A DNA stretch of 64,000 nucleotides from Halarchaeum nitratireducens (GTDB lineage Archaea > Halobacteriota > Halobacteria > Halobacteriales > Halobacteriaceae). This document shows positions 5,255-54,574 of the stretch, in pieces. The notes below the pieces were generated by a model. That model was not told the DNA's origin and searched no databases. It saw nothing but the letters and a program-made list of their open reading frames with translations. The stretch's first letter is position 1; each line of letters opens with the position of its first letter. A program made the translations under genes and the position numbers. Location of the stretch: positions 62,001-126,000 of the forward strand of contig NZ_BMOQ01000001.1 of the NCBI RefSeq assembly GCF_014647155.1. The letters are read 5' to 3'.

Positions 5255-7075
5255 TCAGACCGCCTCCGGGCCGGTCTTGCCGGTGCGGATCTGGAGGGCG
5301 TCCTCGACGTCGATGATGAAGACCTTCCCGTCGCCGGGCTCGCCGGTCTTCGCACCCTCGCGGATCGCGTCCGCGACGTCCTCCGCGGGGATGTCCGCGA
5401 CGACGCACTCCAACTTCACCTTCTGGTGGAGGTCGACGACGTACTCCTCGCCGCGCCACTGCTCGGTCGTCGAGGGTTGGCTCCCGCGCCCCGAGACGTT
5501 CGTGACGGTGAGCGACGGCGCACCGACCTCCGCGAGCGACTTCTTCACCTCGCCCAGCCGGTCGGGGCGGATGACCGCCATCACGAGTTTGATCTCACCG
5601 TCGTCGTCTTCGGCGTCGACGTCCTCGCCCCCGTCCGCGCGGAGTTCGCGGTCGTCGACGTCTACGCCACCGTCGGTGCGGATCTCGTGCGTGTCCTGCG
5701 TGTCCATGTTTACGCCGCCGTCAGTCCGAATCTCGTCGTCCGCGCCGCCGTCCGTGCGGACCTGATTGCGTTCGCCGCCGTCCGTGACGACCCCCTCGTC
5801 GACGAACTCGGGGTACGCCTCGATGCCGTGCTCGCCGCGGTCGAGCCCGATCTCCTCCTCGCTCTCGTCGACGCGGAGGCCCCAGATGCCGTCCGCGATC
5901 TTCAGCGCGATGGCGGTCGTGACGATCGTCCACACCGCGATGACGATCACGCCCGCGATCTGCATCGCGAGCTGCGGGACGAAGTCCGCGTAGCCGCCCG
6001 CGGCGAAGACGGGGATCAGGATCGTCCCGATCGCGCCCGCGCTCCCGTGTACCGCGAAGACGCCGCAGACGTCGTCGATCTTGAGGTTCTCGACGACCCA
6101 ACGGTAGACGATCGGGGTCTGAACGCCCCCGACGAGACCGATGATCAGCGCGCCCCACCAGGTGACGTGTGCGCAGGCGCCCGTGATGGCGACGAGGCCG
6201 GCGAGCAGGCCGTTCGCCGCGAAGAGCGGGTCGGGCTTGCCCTCCTGCATCGTCGTGACGATGGTCGAACCGACCGCGCCGATCCCCATCGCCAGCGTCG
6301 TGTTCAGGGCGACGCGACCGAGCGCCGCGCCGTTGAAGGAGAGCGTCTGCGCGTCGACGTTCGCGCTGAGCACGCTCGCCTGCGTCCCGACGTTGAAGCC
6401 GTACCAGCCGAACGCGAGGATGAGCGTCCCGATGACCGCGAAGACGACCGAGTGACCCGGGATCGGCCGCGGGTTCCCCTCGCTGTCGAAGCGCCCGCGA
6501 CGCGGCCCGACCATGTACGCCGCGACGAGGCCCGCGACGCCGCCGAGCATGTGGACGACCGTCGCGCCCGCGAAGTCCTCGTAGCCCGCGCCGATGATCT
6601 GGCCGAGGAAGCCCGAGCCGGCGAGCAGGCCGCCGCTCCACGCGAAGCCGCCGATGACCGGGTAGATGACCGCGGTCAGGCAGATGGCGAGGAACACGTA
6701 CGCGGAGAACTTGATGCGCTCCGCCACCGCCCCGGAGACGATGGTCGCCGCCGTCATGGCGAACACCGCACCGAAGAGCCACCCGATCCAGCTCGTCGGT
6801 GAGTTGATGTACGCGAACGCGTTAGCGACGCTCACGGCCTGCCCGGACGTGAGCATCCCGGCGAGCGCGTAGACGCCGTTCCCCACGAGGAAGAACACGA
6901 GCACGCCGAGCGACCAGTCCATCATGTTCTTCATCACGACGTTCCCAGCGTTCTTCGCGCGGACCTGACCCGCCTCCAGCAGCGCGAACCCCGGCTGCAT
7001 GAAGAAGATCAGGAAACACACCACCAGCGTCCACACCGTGTTGACCCCGCTGGCGATGTTCGCGACGTCTACCAT
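5255..7075 (-). CDS. Ammonium transporter Amt fused to PII through an RTDGG-repeat linker
   Basis: A 606-residue paralogue of the neighbouring transporter. The Amt part (about residues 1-412) has [12 protein letters not shown] and the histidines in [10 protein letters not shown] and FAVHGSAG. The PII part (about 490-606) carries the T-loop RGEEY (tyrosine about 545), GDGKVFI and [12 protein letters not shown], nearly the same as in the neighbour. Between them is an acidic low-complexity linker of about 75 residues with five units ending in TDGG or ADGG (VVTDGG, VRTDGG, IRTDGG, IRTDGG, LRADGG). The neighbour has only one such unit. Expected role: ammonium uptake gated in cis by energy/2-oxoglutarate sensing. 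Confidence 0.95.
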
Positions 7076-7381
7076 TTCGCCCCCCCGTCAGACCGCATAT
7101 CCGTTAGACGCTCGTCCACTTGAATCGCGTATTTGCGTGAAACCATCTTGCTGATCTACGAGAGAAGTGCAGGCAATGGCTAAGTATAATGCTTTGCTTT
7201 AAAATAACAATAAATAGGGTCTCGGACTGAGCATTTGACAGATACTTATTCGAGTCATGTCTGTATAAGGATGTATAATGGCCACTTCACCGGCATGAAC
7301 ACCGCCAAAACCGGTCGTCCGTAGTGTCTGCGGACGTACACTACAGCCCGTTTCGGACGGAATACGGGTCCCGCGCGCCGG
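7076..7381. promoter_or_regulatory. Region between hemB and amt-PII: amt promoter and a hairpin after hemB
   Basis: No gene is visible in these 306 bases. Around 7190-7215 the minus strand reads CTATTTATTGTTATTTTAAA, the most A/T-rich stretch nearby and a good TATA candidate for the transporter gene starting at 7075; it implies a leader of about 90-110 bases, long for a haloarchaeon and room for control. Close to the hemB stop lies an inverted repeat GTAGTGT/ACACTAC (7321-7344, 10-base loop), which may be a terminator or an operator. Confidence 0.5.
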
Positions 7382-8416
7382 TCAGGGAAGCGAGCGTGCG
7401 ATGTCTTCCGCGAAATACGTGATTATCAGGTCAGCACCTGCACGCTTGATCGATAACACGGACTCGTACGCGCTCTCGGTCGCGTCCAGCCACCCCTTCT
7501 CGCCGGCCGCCTTCAGCATCGCGTACTCTCCCGAGACGTTGTACGCGGCGACCGGATGATCGAACTCCCGGCGGACGTCCGCGACGACGTCGAGGTACGG
7601 GAGCGCCGGTTTCACCATCAGCACGTCCGCGCCCTCCGCGGCGTCGCGCTCGGCCATCCGCATCGCTTCCCGCCCGTTCGCCGGATCCATCTGGTAGTGT
7701 CGTCGGTCGCCGAACGCCGGCGCGCCGTCCGCCGCGTCCCTGAACGGGCCGTAGAACGCCGATTCGTACTTGACCGCGTACGCCATCACGGGCACGTTCT
7801 CGTGGCCCGCCTCGTCGAGCGCCGCGCGAAGCGCCCCGACCTGCCCGTCCGCCATCGACGACGGCGCGACCATGTCCGCGCCCGCCTCGACGTGCGAGAC
7901 CGCGGTCCGCGCGAGCAGGTCGAGCGTCTCGTCGTTCTTCACCGTTAGCCCCCCGCCCGTGCGCGCCCCGCCCGCCACGCCGGGGTCGGATCGGCGCTCC
8001 TCCCAGTTCTCCCTCGCGTCGCTCGCGAGAACCCCGCAGTGGCCGTGCTCGGTGTACTCACAGAGGCAGACGTCCGTGATCACGTAGGCGTCCGTCTCGG
8101 CGGTGATCCGTCGGACGGCCTCTTGGACGACGCCGTCCTCGGCCCACGCGCGCGAGCCGCGCTCGTCCTTGGACTCCGGGACCCCGAAGACGATGACCGC
8201 CTCGACGCCCGTCGCCAACACCTCCTCGACGCGCGCCACCGCCTCCGAGACGGGCACGCGCTCGTGCCCGGGCATCGACTCGATCGGCACGCGCGCCTCG
8301 GTCGTCGCGTCGACGAACACCGGCGCGATCAGATCGCTCGCGTTCAGCGTCGTCTCGCTCACCAGCCCGCGAACGCCGTCCCGGCGGAGCCGCCGCGGTC
8401 GTCGCGTCATGTCCAT
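7382..8416 (-). CDS. hemB: Porphobilinogen synthase (5-aminolevulinate dehydratase)
   Basis: Condenses two 5-aminolevulinate molecules to porphobilinogen. The chosen start gives 344 residues; an in-frame extension to 8518 exists but its first 34 residues are unlike the family. Diagnostic features are RRPRRLRRDGVRGLV at the N-terminus, the zinc-site cysteines in DVCLCEYTEHGHCG, the substrate lysine in AVKYESAFYGPFRDA (about residue 214) and the Schiff-base lysine in MVKPALPYLDVV (about residue 267). A TATA-like ACATAAATT lies near 8490-8500. Two ATG codons (8416 and 8410) compete for the start. Confidence 0.96.
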   Translation of the reverse strand: MDMTRRPRRLRRDGVRGLVSETTLNASDLIAPVFVDATTEARVPIESMPGHERVPVSEAVARVEEVLATGVEAVIVFGVPESKDERGSRAWAEDGVVQEAVRRITAETDAYVITDVCLCEYTEHGHCGVLASDARENWEERRSDPGVAGGARTGGGLTVKNDETLDLLARTAVSHVEAGADMVAPSSMADGQVGALRAALDEAGHENVPVMAYAVKYESAFYGPFRDAADGAPAFGDRRHYQMDPANGREAMRMAERDAAEGADVLMVKPALPYLDVVADVRREFDHPVAAYNVSGEYAMLKAAGEKGWLDATESAYESVLSIKRAGADLIITYFAEDIARSLP

Positions 8417-8550
8417 ATCCCGTCCCACGGCGCCCGCCCGCTTATGGCTCCCGAAGGCGCCCCGCCGGGAGATTTCGTATCGCGGTATGGAATTTATGTC
8501 CTTTCGCCCGGTGGACAACTATTTGCGTTACCATCCCACATGCCGAGGCG

Positions 8551-8925
8551 ATGACGGCCATCGCACTCGCCGTGACGGACGAGTGGGGCGAGGAGCTCCT
8601 CCACGCGTACTACACGACGTTGCAGGCCAAGAAGCGCCGTCTCCGGCCCGACGAGGAGTGGAACGATCCCGCCGCGACGCCCGGGTTCCAGCTCGGCCTC
8701 GAATACCTCGGCGAGCGCCCGTACGTCGAGGCCGTCGTGCCGGACGACCTCGGCGCCTGCCTCGACGCCTACGACGGGACCGTCACCGGCGACGCGCTCG
8801 CCGACCTCGCCGACGACCTCCGCGACGCCGCCTCCGCCGACCGGTCGTTCGACGTCGAGACCGGCCCGGTCGCCGTCTGCGAGTTCGCCGCCGAACGCGG
8901 CCACGCCGTCGAGCTCCGCGAGTAG
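8551..8925 (+). CDS. Conserved-looking haloarchaeal protein of unknown function
   Basis: A 124-residue acidic soluble protein beginning MTAIALAVTDEWGEELL. I see no known motif, membrane segment or metal site. The composition and codon use match the neighbours and an A/T-rich element (ACAACTATTTGCG, about 8517-8529) sits about 27 bases before the ATG, as in leaderless haloarchaeal genes. It is transcribed divergently from hemB and converges on the biotin transporter operon, so context gives no function. Confidence 0.75.
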   Translation: MTAIALAVTDEWGEELLHAYYTTLQAKKRRLRPDEEWNDPAATPGFQLGLEYLGERPYVEAVVPDDLGACLDAYDGTVTGDALADLADDLRDAASADRSFDVETGPVAVCEFAAERGHAVELRE

Positions 8926-8941
8926 CGTCTCTCCCTGTGCG

Positions 8942-9649
8942 CTACCACGCGACGGCGGCCGCGATCAGCGCGCCCGTGAGACACAGGACCGCGTAGTCCC
9001 GGCGCGCGAACGAGAGCGCGGGGGGCGTCGGGTTCCACGAGAGACAGCGCGCCCGGAGCGCGAGCGCCAACGCGTCCGCGCGACGAAACGCCCGTTCGAG
9101 CGCGCCGACCGCGAGGTGCACCACTCGCCTGTCGACGCGGCGCTCGTCGCCCAGTCGGACCCACGACCCCTCCCGGAGCCGCCGGAGGTCGGCCCGTAGG
9201 AGCGGGAGGAAGCGGAAGACGAGCGCCACGCCGAGTCCGAGGAACCGTCCCGCGCGTCCCGGAACGAGTCGCGCGATCGCCGCCCGCGATTCCCGGGGAG
9301 ACGTCGTCCGCACGTACGCCGCCGCGAGCGCGAGCAGGAGCACCGTCCGATAGACGGCGAGCAGGGGATCTCGTACCCCCGCGGGCTCTATCCACGGCGG
9401 CCCGAACCGGAGCGCCCCCACGAGCGGCGCGACGAGCAGAAACGGCAGGACGCCGCGGTACTCCGCGTACACCGCACGCACCGAGAGCCCGCAGCCGCGA
9501 AGCGCGACCAGACAGACGAGCGTGAGCGCGAGCAGCCACGCCGGCGTCGAACGCGCGAGCGCGACCGCCGCGATCGCCGCTTGGGCCGCGAGCTTCGTCC
9601 GCGGATCGAGGCGGTGGCCCAGCGTGTCGCCGGGCGCGTGGCTCAGCAC
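8942..9649 (-). CDS. bioN: Energy-coupling factor transporter membrane subunit (EcfT/CbiQ/BioN type)
   Basis: Transmembrane coupling subunit of an ECF importer; links the ATPase to the substrate-binding BioY. 235 residues with about five hydrophobic segments. The family start LDPRTKLAAQ and the conserved cytosolic region carrying EGSWVRLG and ALALRARCL (the two Ala-Arg-containing coupling motifs are in this region) are seen. The GTG start overlaps the end of the ATPase gene, so the three genes bioY-bioM-bioN form one tightly coupled operon. A longer in-frame extension to 9817 is antisense-like and overlaps the ATPase. Confidence 0.88.
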   Translation of the reverse strand: MLSHAPGDTLGHRLDPRTKLAAQAAIAAVALARSTPAWLLALTLVCLVALRGCGLSVRAVYAEYRGVLPFLLVAPLVGALRFGPPWIEPAGVRDPLLAVYRTVLLLALAAAYVRTTSPRESRAAIARLVPGRAGRFLGLGVALVFRFLPLLRADLRRLREGSWVRLGDERRVDRRVVHLAVGALERAFRRADALALALRARCLSWNPTPPALSFARRDYAVLCLTGALIAAAVAW

Positions 9650-10344
9650 GGCCGATCGACCGGTACTCCCGCCAACCGCTCGACGGCGGCGTCGGGCGCG
9701 TCGTTCACGACGACCGCCCCGCCGCTCAGGACGACCAGCCGGTCCGCAGGCGCGAGCACGTCCCGGAGGTCGTGCGTGACGACGACGACGCTCGTCCCGG
9801 CGGCGTGGAGCGCGCACAATCGTTCGAGGACGCTCTCTCGCGCCGGCGCGTCGAGCCCGGTGAACGGCTCGTCGAGGACGAGGTGATCCGGGCGCATCGC
9901 CAGCGCTCCCGCGATAGCGACCCGCTCGCGCTCCCCGCCGGAGAGCGTCTCGATCCGCTCGTCCTCCCGTCCCGCCAAGTTCACCGCGTCGAGCGCGTCC
10001 CCGACGCGGTCGTCGATCTCGTCCCGGGGGAGCCCGAGGTTCTCCGGGCCGAAGGCGACGTCCGCGCCGACCGTCGCCGCGACGAAGCTGTCGCGCGGTT
10101 CCTGGAACACCATCCCGACCGCCGTCCGCGCCGCGACGCGATCCGCGCTCACCCGCGTTCCGTTCACCCGAACCGTCCCCGAATCGGGTTCGAGCAGGCC
10201 GTTCCAGTGGCGCACGAGCGTCGTCTTCCCCGAGCCGTTCGCGCCCGCGAGGACGACGAACTCGCCGTCCTCGACCACCAGGTCCACCCTGTCGAGCGCC
10301 GTCGCCTCGCCGTAGCGGTGGACGACGCCGGAGACGTCGATCAC
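9643..10344 (-). CDS. bioM: ECF transporter ATPase (BioM/CbiO type)
   Basis: ABC ATPase energising the biotin importer. 233 residues; Walker A GANGSGKTT near residue 34, Q-loop FQEPRDSF, signature LSGGERERVAIA, Walker B LVLDEPFTGLD and the switch histidine in VVTHD. The GTG start at 10344 overlaps the bioY stop as GTGA; the reading frame can be extended to 10560 but that part overlaps bioY and does not look like a transporter ATPase. Located between the substrate subunit and the membrane subunit. Confidence 0.92.
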   Translation of the reverse strand: MIDVSGVVHRYGEATALDRVDLVVEDGEFVVLAGANGSGKTTLVRHWNGLLEPDSGTVRVNGTRVSADRVAARTAVGMVFQEPRDSFVAATVGADVAFGPENLGLPRDEIDDRVGDALDAVNLAGREDERIETLSGGERERVAIAGALAMRPDHLVLDEPFTGLDAPARESVLERLCALHAAGTSVVVVTHDLRDVLAPADRLVVLSGGAVVVNDAPDAAVERLAGVPVDRPC

Positions 10345-50762: not shown

Positions 50763-51521
50763 CTACTGTTCGTAGTGCCACTCGCGGAGCGCCTGCCGGA
50801 CGAAGTCGCCCTCGACGCTCCGATAGAGGTTCTCGCTTCCCTCGTGGTCGCCGAACGTCCAGTCGCGGACGACGACCGCGGGCGTCCCGTCGTCGCCCTC
50901 GCCGGAGACGAGGTTCGCCGTCGCGGCGAGTTCGTCGACGACCGACTCGACCGTGACCTCGAGCTCGTGACCGTCGCGGTCGGTCTCACCGCGCCAGTCG
51001 CGCGACGCCGGCATCCCCGCCCACCCGATCGCCACGCCCGTTTGCCCGTGGCGGAACGGCCGCCCCGAGGTGTCCGTGACGACGACCGACGCGTCCACGG
51101 AGAGGCGCTCGCGGATGCGCCGCGCCGACTCGCTCGGTCGCTTCGGAAGGAGGAGGAGTTCGGCCCCGCCCGTGTTCGAGCGGTCGATCCCGGCGTTCAC
51201 GCCGACGTGCCCGAACCGGGTCTCCGTGAGGAGGAACGGCTCGTCCATCACGAGGTCGGTCGACTCCTCCAGGACGGCCTGAGCGAAGCGCGGGTCGCGC
51301 TCCTCGCCGGTCTGCTCCTCGAAGCGCGCCGCGATCTCGCGTGCGCGCGGCCCCGCCGGGTAGTCCGCGAGGGTGGCCGTCCGCCCCTCGACCTTCGAGA
51401 CGATCGTGCTCGCCACACAGAGCACGTCGTCCCCGCGGAGGTCGCACGCGGCCTCGATCGCGGTCGCGATGTCGTCGCCCGTCTCGAACTCGGGGAGCCC
51501 CGGAACTGCGAACGCTTCCAT
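50763..51521 (-). CDS. cofE: Coenzyme F420-0:L-glutamate ligase
   Basis: 252 residues. Adds glutamate residues to F420-0 with GTP. The N-terminal FETGDDIATAIEAA, the VASTIVSKVEGR motif, VMDEPFLLTETRFGHVGVNAGIDRSN, and VVVTDTSGRPFRHGQTGVAIGWAG motifs are all as in characterised CofE (FbiB N-terminal) proteins. Together with the F420:NADP reductase-like gene at 61345 it shows that the organism uses coenzyme F420. Confidence 0.95.
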   Translation of the reverse strand: MEAFAVPGLPEFETGDDIATAIEAACDLRGDDVLCVASTIVSKVEGRTATLADYPAGPRAREIAARFEEQTGEERDPRFAQAVLEESTDLVMDEPFLLTETRFGHVGVNAGIDRSNTGGAELLLLPKRPSESARRIRERLSVDASVVVTDTSGRPFRHGQTGVAIGWAGMPASRDWRGETDRDGHELEVTVESVVDELAATANLVSGEGDDGTPAVVVRDWTFGDHEGSENLYRSVEGDFVRQALREWHYEQ

Positions 51522-51620: not shown

Positions 51621-52862
51621 ATGGAGGAGACACACGTCGTCACCGTCTTCCTACGCAATGGCACCGACGTCCTGCTCTTCCGGCGGAGCGAGGACGTCGG
51701 CTCCTACGCGGGCCGGTGGGGCGCCGTCGCCGGACACGCCGAGGGCCACCCGGCCGCGCAGGCGCGCGTCGAGATCCGCGAGGAGACGGGGATCGACCCG
51801 GACGCCGACGCGACGCTCGTCCGCGCGGGCGAACCGCTCGCCGTCACCGACGACGAGCGCGGAACCCGGTGGATCGTCCACCCGTTCCTCTTCGACTGCG
51901 ACACGCGCGACGTGACGCCGAACTACGAGACCGCGGGCTACGAGTGGGTCCCGCCGACGGCCATCCGCGAGCGCGAGACGGTCCCCGACCTCTGGACCTC
52001 GTACGACCGCGTCCGGCCGTCGGTCGAGAGCGTGCGCGACGACGGGACGCACGGCTCCGCTTACCTCTCCGTTCGGGCCTGCGAGGTCCTGCGGGACGAC
52101 GCCGCGAGCGGAGCCGACTACGACGCCCTGCTCGGGACGGCGCGCGAGCTGTTGACCGCACGCGAGGGCATGGCCGCCGTCGTCAACCGCGTGAACCGCG
52201 TCGTCGCGGACGCCGCCGATGCCGACGCCGACGCGGTCCTGGCGAGCGCGAGCGCGGTGATCGACGCGGCACTCGCCGCCGACCGCGACGCCGCCGCGAC
52301 CGCCGCGGCCGAACTCGCCGACGCCTCGCTCCTGACGCTCTCGCGCTCCCGGACGGTCCGCGACGCCATCGTCGGCGCCGATCCGGGACGCGTTGTCGTC
52401 GCGGAGTCGCGGACCGGCCGCGAGGGCGTCGTCGCCGCCGAACGCCTCGGCGATGCGGGCCTCGACGTGACGCTCACGACGGACGCCGCGGTCGCGTCGC
52501 TCGTCGCGGCCGTCGACGCGGTACTCGTCGGTGCGGACACCGTGTTACGGGACGGGAGCGTCGTGAACAAGGTCGGGACGCGCGCCGCGGCGCTCGCCGC
52601 CGCCGCCGTGGACGTCCCGGTCTACGCCGTCTGCGCGACCGACAAGGTCGCCCCCGAGACGGACCCCGACGACCCCGACTTAGAGGCCGCCTCGCCGACG
52701 GAGCTCTACGACGGCGACGCACCCCTCGACGTCGTGAACCCCCTGTTCGACGTCACGCCCGCGTCGCTCGTGACGCGCGTCGTCACGGAAGACGGCGTCC
52801 TCGATCCCGCGGACGTCGAGGCCGTCGCCGCAGACCTCTCGGCCCTCCGCGCATGGCAGTAG
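51621..52862 (+). CDS. Nudix domain fused to an aIF2B-alpha/R15P-isomerase-like domain
   Basis: 413 residues. Residues 1 to about 130 form a Nudix domain (Nudix box GHAEGHPAAQARVEIREETGI, with the ExxEE core kept but the usual arginine replaced by valine). Residues ~160-413 resemble the IF-2B alpha/beta/delta family, with the VVVAESRTGREGVVAAERL strand-loop and VLVGADTVLRDGSVVNKVGT (the aspartate of ribose-1,5-bisphosphate isomerases in GAD). The catalytic cysteine expected in a T-H-C-N-S context reads T-L-S-R-S here, i.e. serine. Probably nucleotide/pentose metabolism, not initiation; activity uncertain. Confidence 0.88.
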   Translation: MEETHVVTVFLRNGTDVLLFRRSEDVGSYAGRWGAVAGHAEGHPAAQARVEIREETGIDPDADATLVRAGEPLAVTDDERGTRWIVHPFLFDCDTRDVTPNYETAGYEWVPPTAIRERETVPDLWTSYDRVRPSVESVRDDGTHGSAYLSVRACEVLRDDAASGADYDALLGTARELLTAREGMAAVVNRVNRVVADAADADADAVLASASAVIDAALAADRDAAATAAAELADASLLTLSRSRTVRDAIVGADPGRVVVAESRTGREGVVAAERLGDAGLDVTLTTDAAVASLVAAVDAVLVGADTVLRDGSVVNKVGTRAAALAAAAVDVPVYAVCATDKVAPETDPDDPDLEAASPTELYDGDAPLDVVNPLFDVTPASLVTRVVTEDGVLDPADVEAVAADLSALRAWQ

Positions 52863-54085: not shown

Positions 54086-54574
54086 GTGTCGCTCCCCTGG
54101 CCGATCACCGCCGTGCTCGTCGTCGCGGCGTTCGCGCTCCTCTTCGCCCGCCGGGAACCCGGCGGCGAGGTTCTCCGCGACGTCGATTGGACGCTGCTCG
54201 TCCTCTTCGTGGGGATGTTCGTCCTCGTCGCCGGCCTCCGGACGACGCCGATCGTCCCCGCGCTCGAAGCGCACGTCATCGACGGCCTCTCGCTCGGCGC
54301 GGCGGCGTTCGCGCTCTCGAACCTCGTGAGCAACGTCCCCGCCGTCCTCGTGCTCTCCGCCGGCGTTTCCACCCACGAGGGGTGGCTCGTCCTCTCCGCC
54401 GTGGCGACGCTCGCCGGCAACGCCACGCCCGTCGCGTTCGCCGCGTCGCTCATCGTCCTCGAAGGCGCGGCCCGCCGCGGCGTCGATTTCCCCGTTCGGT
54501 GTCTCGTCGCCGTCGGCCTCCCGGTCAGCGTCGTCACCTCCGCGCTCGCCGTCGCGCTCCTCGTCTGGGTCTGA
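54086..54574 (+). CDS. Half-length ArsB/SLC13 (ion transporter superfamily) membrane protein
   Basis: 162 residues from GTG 54086, about five membrane segments. It resembles only the C-terminal repeat of the ArsB/NhaD/CitMHS/SLC13 superfamily: DWTLLVLFVGMFVLVAG, then the SNLVSNVPAVLVLSAG motif of the transport core, LAGNATPVAFAASLIVLEGAARRG, and a final segment. Full members have two such repeats and 400 or more residues. No N-terminal half lies in the window beside it. It could be a homodimeric half-transporter or a remnant. It begins one base after the dehydrogenase stop. Confidence 0.75.
   Translation: MSLPWPITAVLVVAAFALLFARREPGGEVLRDVDWTLLVLFVGMFVLVAGLRTTPIVPALEAHVIDGLSLGAAAFALSNLVSNVPAVLVLSAGVSTHEGWLVLSAVATLAGNATPVAFAASLIVLEGAARRGVDFPVRCLVAVGLPVSVVTSALAVALLVWV

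Follow-up and report, generated by a model that had tools for sequence, protein, structure and literature searches.

The window, the 64,000-nucleotide stretch of DNA analysed here, belongs to a haloarchaeal genome of 3.14 Mb that is 98% complete. At 51621..52862 on the plus strand it carries an uninterrupted open reading frame with an ATG start, encoding 413 amino acids plus a stop codon, whose product joins two domains in one chain. A Nudix domain spans residues 1-133 (51621..52019, plus strand), followed by a domain with the fold shared by R15P isomerase (R15Pi) and eIF2B (residues 129-413 plus stop; 52005..52862, plus strand). Pfam placed NUDIX at residues 6-122 (6e-11) and IF-2B at residues 170-396 (7.2e-44), both above the curated cut-offs. 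Structural comparison of the AlphaFold2 model (mean pLDDT = 93.8, pTM = 0.91) matched residues 129-413 to R15Pi, with Z scores of 32.4 for 3vm6 and 32.2 for 5yfs, a Pyrococcus C135S mutant, and residues 1-133 to the Nudix proteins 2fkb and 3n77 (Z = 17.2). Pfam, the model and the structural matches thus agree that a Nudix fold is present, and they bear out the preliminary description of the gene as a Nudix domain fused to an R15Pi/aIF2B-like one. Against TIGR00511, the R15Pi profile, the protein scored 102.3 bits, below the curated cut-off of 314.1.

An alignment of full-length homologues comprised 30 sequences, the window's own included. Near full-length relatives in named records (n = 17) included 15 with haloarchaeal names and two MAG contigs with bacterial labels. 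The window protein is a haloarchaeal fusion of the HVO_1934 type. HVO_1934 of H. volcanii, matched by its description, has the same two-domain description and size: in the accessible part of PMC8576121 it is listed as a 'NUDIX family hydrolase/eIF-2B domain protein' of 43.2 kDa and called aIF2Bsu. The Nudix/IF-2B architecture is already annotated; the family is known, and its function is unexplained.

Upstream, 99 bp away, lies the divergent gene for CofE, coenzyme F420-0:L-glutamate ligase (50763..51521, minus strand), which we do not claim as part of the system. Across 18 loci, in which neighbours were called by a crude conservation rule that leaves absences with little meaning, CofE was found near the fusion gene on the opposite strand in nine (window included), a luciferase-like gene on the opposite strand in seven, and a D-2-hydroxyacid dehydrogenase, the commonest same-strand neighbour, about 0.14 to 2.3 kb downstream in seven. 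We drew no pathway from CofE, the dehydrogenase or the luciferase-like gene. Adjoining the D-2-hydroxyacid dehydrogenase gene, a 162-aa ORF at 54086-54574 aligns with the CitMHS transporter profile (length 336) over positions 221-314 only; it may belong to a larger transporter gene or to a truncated one.

Serine at the catalytic cysteine position and the pocket residues

Two motifs of the IF-2B domain align with the catalytic residues of R15Pi. VLVGADTV contains Asp306 (codon 52536..52538, plus strand), aligned with Asp204 of the P. horikoshii enzyme, while TLSRSRTV contains Ser241 (codon 52341..52343, plus strand), aligned with Cys135; the same column is Ser in chain 5yfs, whose title gives it as the C135S mutant. 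The catalytic Asp of R15Pi (Asp202/Asp204) is therefore retained in the fusion, and the catalytic Cys (Cys133/Cys135) is absent. Both residues had been assigned in this way from the letters of the window alone, and alignment with characterised R15P isomerases, which the preliminary description had suggested, gives the same correspondence. A pocket that keeps the Asp and has exchanged Cys for Ser is best described by its phrase, 'modified isomerase/sensor site'.

Conservation was assessed in 87 rows, made up of the 30 best-scoring fusions, among them the window's own, a further 17 supplied by a pattern scan, and 40 mainly low-scoring ones, a sample rich in divergent members. Ser241, Ser243 and Thr245 were each found in 87/87. 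As Ser241 is shared by every family member sampled, it is not a product of chance or sequencing error. Glu268 (codon 52422..52424, plus strand) was present in 86/87 with one row gapped, Asp306 in 85/87 with two gapped, and Asn316 and Lys342 each in 86/87 with one gapped; Lys317 was found in 86/87, His144 in 84/87 and Arg181 in 79/87. Gly145, Ser243, Asp306, Asn316, Lys317 and Lys342 were uniform in all rows with letters, bar one Lys317 row that belongs to a broken gene (L149).

The fusions differ from R15Pi in a set of residues that changed together. Position 241 is Cys, and positions 144 and 268 are Arg and Gln, in 30/30 haloarchaeal R15Pi proteins scoring over the TIGR00511 cut-off and in 20/20 Cys-type IF-2B proteins that come from other classes of the phylum and count as R15Pi by their residues. 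In 37/37 fusions of one comparison, Arg22 of R15Pi is replaced by His144 and Gln166 by Glu268. According to the accessible part of PMC5789824, Arg22, Arg65, Gln166 and Lys215 hold the 1-phosphate of the R15Pi substrate, Ser137 and Lys240 the 5-phosphate, and Asp204, Asn214 and Lys215 the sugar. The fusion thus keeps Arg65 and Lys215 on the 1-phosphate side (as Arg181 and Lys317) and has lost the other two, whereas the side chains for the 5-phosphate and sugar are all retained: Ser137 as Ser243, Lys240 as Lys342, Asp204 as Asp306, Asn214 as Asn316 and Lys215 as Lys317.

The pocket was conserved above the background of its domain in the whole set (9/10 versus 35/275 positions, p = 3e-8), a descriptive figure since the positions were picked after their conservation had been seen. 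The AMP site of PH0208, with columns mapped by offset, was mostly not conserved in the fusions and was partly changed also in haloarchaeal R15Pi. We also considered an alternative catalytic Cys, which the preliminary description had named as a finding that would overturn its assignment, and rejected it: among the alignment columns occupied by a residue of the window protein, only 9 and 93 have Cys in at least 20 rows, and these two belong to the Nudix part; no Cys is conserved in the IF-2B domain across the 87 rows. The cysteines of the window protein are C93 (Cys in 49/87, Nudix domain), C154 (3/87) and C338 (14/87).

Decay of the Nudix box and the probable origin of the fusion

The Nudix box of the window protein lies at residues 38-58 (51732..51794, plus strand). 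Judged by the pattern that we take to define it (GX5E and REUXEE), the box is complete in its REUXEE glutamates, E51, E54 and E55. In the alignment, the loop before these glutamates is two residues shorter than in the Nudix protein of a split gene pair described below (P0002), and GX5E lacks its Glu, so that the box is indeed slightly divergent, as had been noted before. Across the family, Glu was found at E51 in 59/87 rows, at E54 in 71/87 and at E55 in 60/87. All three glutamates were present in 59/87, a single change was found in one row, and the other 27/87 lacked at least two of the three; given how the rows were chosen, this last fraction is no population frequency. Of the three positions, no more than one is acidic in any of these 27 rows: one Glu in 11, one Asp in four and none in 12. 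Recognisable Nudix sequence flanks the box in nearly all of them, indicating that the box has been lost and not misaligned. The full ORF of L152, whose aligned row was cut to the matched part, has a shortened Nudix-like N-terminal part with no box.

The pocket did not follow this decay. Positions 241, 243, 268, 316, 317 and 342 were invariant in the 27 decayed rows, and the pocket again stood out from the domain background (9/10 versus 56/275, p = 2.9e-6, descriptive for the same reason). Mean pairwise identity was 0.58 for the Nudix and 0.52 for the IF-2B domain in the 59 intact rows, compared with 0.35 and 0.52 in the 27 decayed rows. These identities and a quick tree of the IF-2B domain only were computed for 86 rows, leaving out L149, which enters the 87 rows by its longer piece only. 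On the tree, the decay label required eight changes, at least four of them forced by the starred branches. Decay of a canonical Nudix box is the natural reading, the tree itself giving no direction. A model of one protein with a decayed box (L050) reached a pLDDT of 91.7, with its Nudix fold partly borrowed, as 17 of the 18 alignment rows behind it were other fusions, mostly intact.

By profile, the closest solved Nudix proteins were NudI and a Methanosarcina MutT-related protein, and no ADP-ribose hydrolase appeared by name among the 58 profile-match rows for the Nudix part. One genome (G068) has two fusion copies, L132 and L133, both with a decayed Nudix box. In another (G067), the fusion gene L149 is broken into two frames, so loss of the gene is possible. 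Two pattern-scan fusions, L037 and L039, come from MAGs labelled Gammaproteobacteria and Rhodothermia and form long branches together inside the family; mis-binned contigs or transfer are possible explanations.

The two domains also occur as separate genes. In G266, a genome from another class of the same phylum, a Nudix ORF (L087 4010-4420, minus strand) overlaps an IF-2B ORF (L087 3126-4028, minus strand) by 19 bases, and the pair recurs, likewise overlapping, at the end of a contig in G275, a second genome of that genus; the contigs with split genes are short (6.8 and 3.7 kb), and misbinning is possible. The IF-2B protein of G266 has HGAS and Ser at the Cys position; its residues at the places of the sugar-binding Lys and of Glu268 are Gly and Tyr. 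A further genome of this genus (G282) yielded only an R15Pi-like protein on its contig. In a quick tree of 71 IF-2B proteins, which took 16/37 fusions, 16/30 haloarchaeal R15Pi and 16/20 of the others, the 16 fusions formed one clade (support 99), joined by the G266 protein (support 90, with a long-branch warning). IF-2B paralogues with Asp at the Cys position (16/21 haloarchaeal paralogues compared) formed a separate clade. Four further sequences (L053-L056) matched the fusion in the Nudix part alone, and L088 (G403) carries a related Nudix gene with no IF-2B match on its 9-kb stretch. Given the overlapping pairs in G266 and G275, the Nudix part of the fusion was probably once a gene of its own beside that of the IF-2B part. 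An Acidobacterium MAG (L052) has a Cys-motif IF-2B protein near an ordinary Nudix gene, one ORF apart, in a row (5905-10045) that presumably runs purine nucleoside phosphorylase-like, cytidine deaminase-like, IF-2B, TsaD-like and Nudix, all but the IF-2B and Nudix genes being named by our own reading.

Among 97 haloarchaeal genomes, the fusion was present in 75 and not found in 22 when presence was called from a best E-value below 1e-30 in a single-sequence search, which very diverged fusions may escape; both domains were checked in part of the genomes, and the matches in G002 and G014 contain internal stop codons. R15Pi exceeded the TIGR00511 cut-off in 62/97, and no protein of the window's genome did so. 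Both proteins were found in 46 genomes, the fusion only in 29, R15Pi only in 16 and neither in six (Fisher p = 0.45). We considered the fusion as a partner of R15Pi and set this idea aside: with no association between the two in these genomes, a role as R15Pi subunit or regulator is unlikely. Besides the fusion, a single IF-2B protein was found in the window's genome (L001 1495-2313, contig C4); it has Asp at the Cys position (THDYS) and is presumably of the HVO_2706 type.

Candidate functions of the pocket

Because the pocket is preserved while the Nudix site has decayed in several relatives, the pocket, and not Nudix hydrolysis, is what the family conserves and is probably its working part. 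What is new here, as far as sequence can tell, is that the Ser-containing pocket is invariant and the hydrolase site expendable. The observations themselves are the domain make-up, a fixed residue set, repeated loss of the Nudix box, split overlapping genes in two genomes and the lack of association with R15Pi.

What the pocket might hold is suggested by two relatives described in the accessible parts of earlier work. The C135S variant of Pyrococcus R15Pi is inactive and binds R15P like the wild type, and eIF2B alpha keeps the 5-phosphate and sugar residues without those for the 1-phosphate, with Ala (human) or Gly (fission yeast) at the Cys position (PMC5789824); in eIF2B alpha, sugar phosphates bind in this pocket and activate through it (PMC8187479). 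By analogy, the fusion would bind a sugar with a 5-phosphate and none at C1, such as ribose 5-phosphate or a 5-phosphoribosyl compound, and would carry out no R15P isomerase reaction. We tentatively favour, at somewhat short of even odds, the reading that the family has remodelled an R15Pi-fold pocket for such a ligand, most likely as a sensor, with a dispensable Nudix activity. On this view the IF-2B domain would sense a metabolite much as eIF2B alpha does. The Nudix domain could still make or consume the ligand in the window's organism, and may persist in other lineages only as a domain without catalytic residues.

Several observations weigh against this sensor reading. Ser241 shows no drift in 87 rows, while the sensor eIF2B alpha varies between Ala and Gly (accessible part of PMC5789824), and the strictness of Ser241 and Glu268 could be a sign of chemistry. 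The 1-phosphate site is only half dismantled, as Arg181 and Lys317 are largely kept. The pocket pattern stops short of the split IF-2B protein, which groups with the fusions yet has Gly in place of Lys317 and Tyr in place of Glu268. Finally, deletion of HVO_1934 in H. volcanii gave no phenotype under 12 conditions in the accessible part of PMC3828320.

The same strictness makes it possible, though we find it doubtful, that the IF-2B domain is an active enzyme of altered chemistry, in which Ser241, Glu268 and Asp306 would work on a 5-phosphoribosyl substrate bearing some group other than phosphate at C1. Wherever the rows have letters these three residues are universal (87/87, 86/86 and 85/85), also where the Nudix box has decayed, and the residues that changed relative to R15Pi did so jointly in 37/37 fusions. 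Yet the identical Cys-to-Ser exchange kills Pyrococcus R15Pi (accessible part of PMC5789824), and the commonest same-strand neighbour, the D-2-hydroxyacid dehydrogenase (7/18 loci), indicates no pathway. A fuller version, which we hold rather unlikely, would make the family a new R15Pi-fold enzyme with an invariant Ser-Glu-Asp pocket that at first acted together with a Nudix hydrolase encoded next to it, then merged with that hydrolase and later became independent of it, so that the Nudix site decayed several times and the Nudix domain remained as a scaffold.

The preliminary description had instead proposed a relay, in which the Nudix domain could cut a nucleotide and hand the product on to the modified site; were ADP-ribose the nucleotide, ribose 5-phosphate plus AMP would be released and the IF-2B pocket would take up the product. 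The intact glutamates of the window protein suit this, the split neighbouring genes suggest an old functional link, and ribose 5-phosphate would, by residue comparison, fit the conserved half of the pocket. As a mechanism for the family, the relay is not supported: the 27 decayed fusions have lost at least two Nudix glutamates with the pocket unchanged. The profile matches also speak against it, the closest solved Nudix proteins being NudI and the Methanosarcina protein and none of the 58 rows bearing the name of an ADP-ribose hydrolase. A coupled activity in the window protein, whose glutamates are intact, is the part of the proposal that stands as possible, and overall we regard the relay as improbable. 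Least of all do we expect a true subunit of translation initiation factor aIF2B, a very unlikely role that is nonetheless suggested by the fold common to eIF2B subunits and by the study of HVO_1934 as aIF2Bsu, co-isolated with one RNA polymerase subunit as bait. In the accessible part of the same study, no reciprocal co-isolation was reported among the three putative subunits, and HVO_1934 and HVO_2706 showed only one or two interactions with other aIFs (PMC8576121). Besides the single deletion, the HVO_1934/HVO_2706 double deletion is called indistinguishable in the accessible text of PMC3828320, although, for the double mutant, the Fig. 6 legend speaks of conditions that show differences; its authors do not decide there whether the two proteins are initiation factors. 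The absence of the fusion from 22/97 genomes at the E-value threshold also argues against this role.

Relation to known systems

Archaeal proteins of this fold have been named translation factors or isomerases largely by similarity, and the residue pattern allows a third possibility to be tested clearly, namely a pocket that takes a 5-phospho-sugar and is not that of an isomerase. The family is available for such a test in 75/97 haloarchaeal genomes at the E-value threshold and, going by the description of HVO_1934, in a species amenable to genetics; as the Nudix site has been lost repeatedly, the second domain comes first in line for assay. A sensor, if that reading is true, would be a prokaryotic parallel of the sugar-phosphate switch of eIF2B; an enzyme, if that one is, would add a new reaction to the R15Pi/eIF2B fold. 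Our search of the open-licence literature, some of it accessible only in part, found no treatment of the Ser substitution or of Nudix loss in this fusion, which does not prove their absence. The accessible part of PMC8576121 on HVO_1934 discusses neither, that of PMC9700705 on the haloarchaeal R15P pathway does not mention Nudix, and a review of the Nudix clan (PMC5389931) mentions neither initiation factors nor eIF2B.

R15Pi as defined by TIGR00511 resembles the C-terminal domain in fold (Z = 32) and in the Asp, Asn, Lys, Ser and Lys for sugar and 5-phosphate; the fusion differs by Ser for Cys, His for Arg22, Glu for Gln166, a score below the cut-off and an additional Nudix domain. The second haloarchaeal IF-2B paralogue (L001) shares the IF-2B domain and a changed Cys position, but has Asp there and belongs to the separate clade. 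Alpha subunits of eIF2B have the same fold and, in the accessible parts of PMC5789824 and PMC8187479, likewise keep the 5-phosphate and sugar side, alter the 1-phosphate side and lack the catalytic Cys; in contrast to the fusion, they have Ala or Gly instead of Ser, act in a decamer with catalytic subunits that archaea lack, and carry no Nudix domain. A precedent for losing the Nudix site in a fused ligand sensor is NUDT9-H of TRPM2, where the Nudix domain is canonical in certain lineages but only vestigial elsewhere (accessible part of PMC6461439); its partner is an unrelated ion channel, which makes the likeness one of analogy only.
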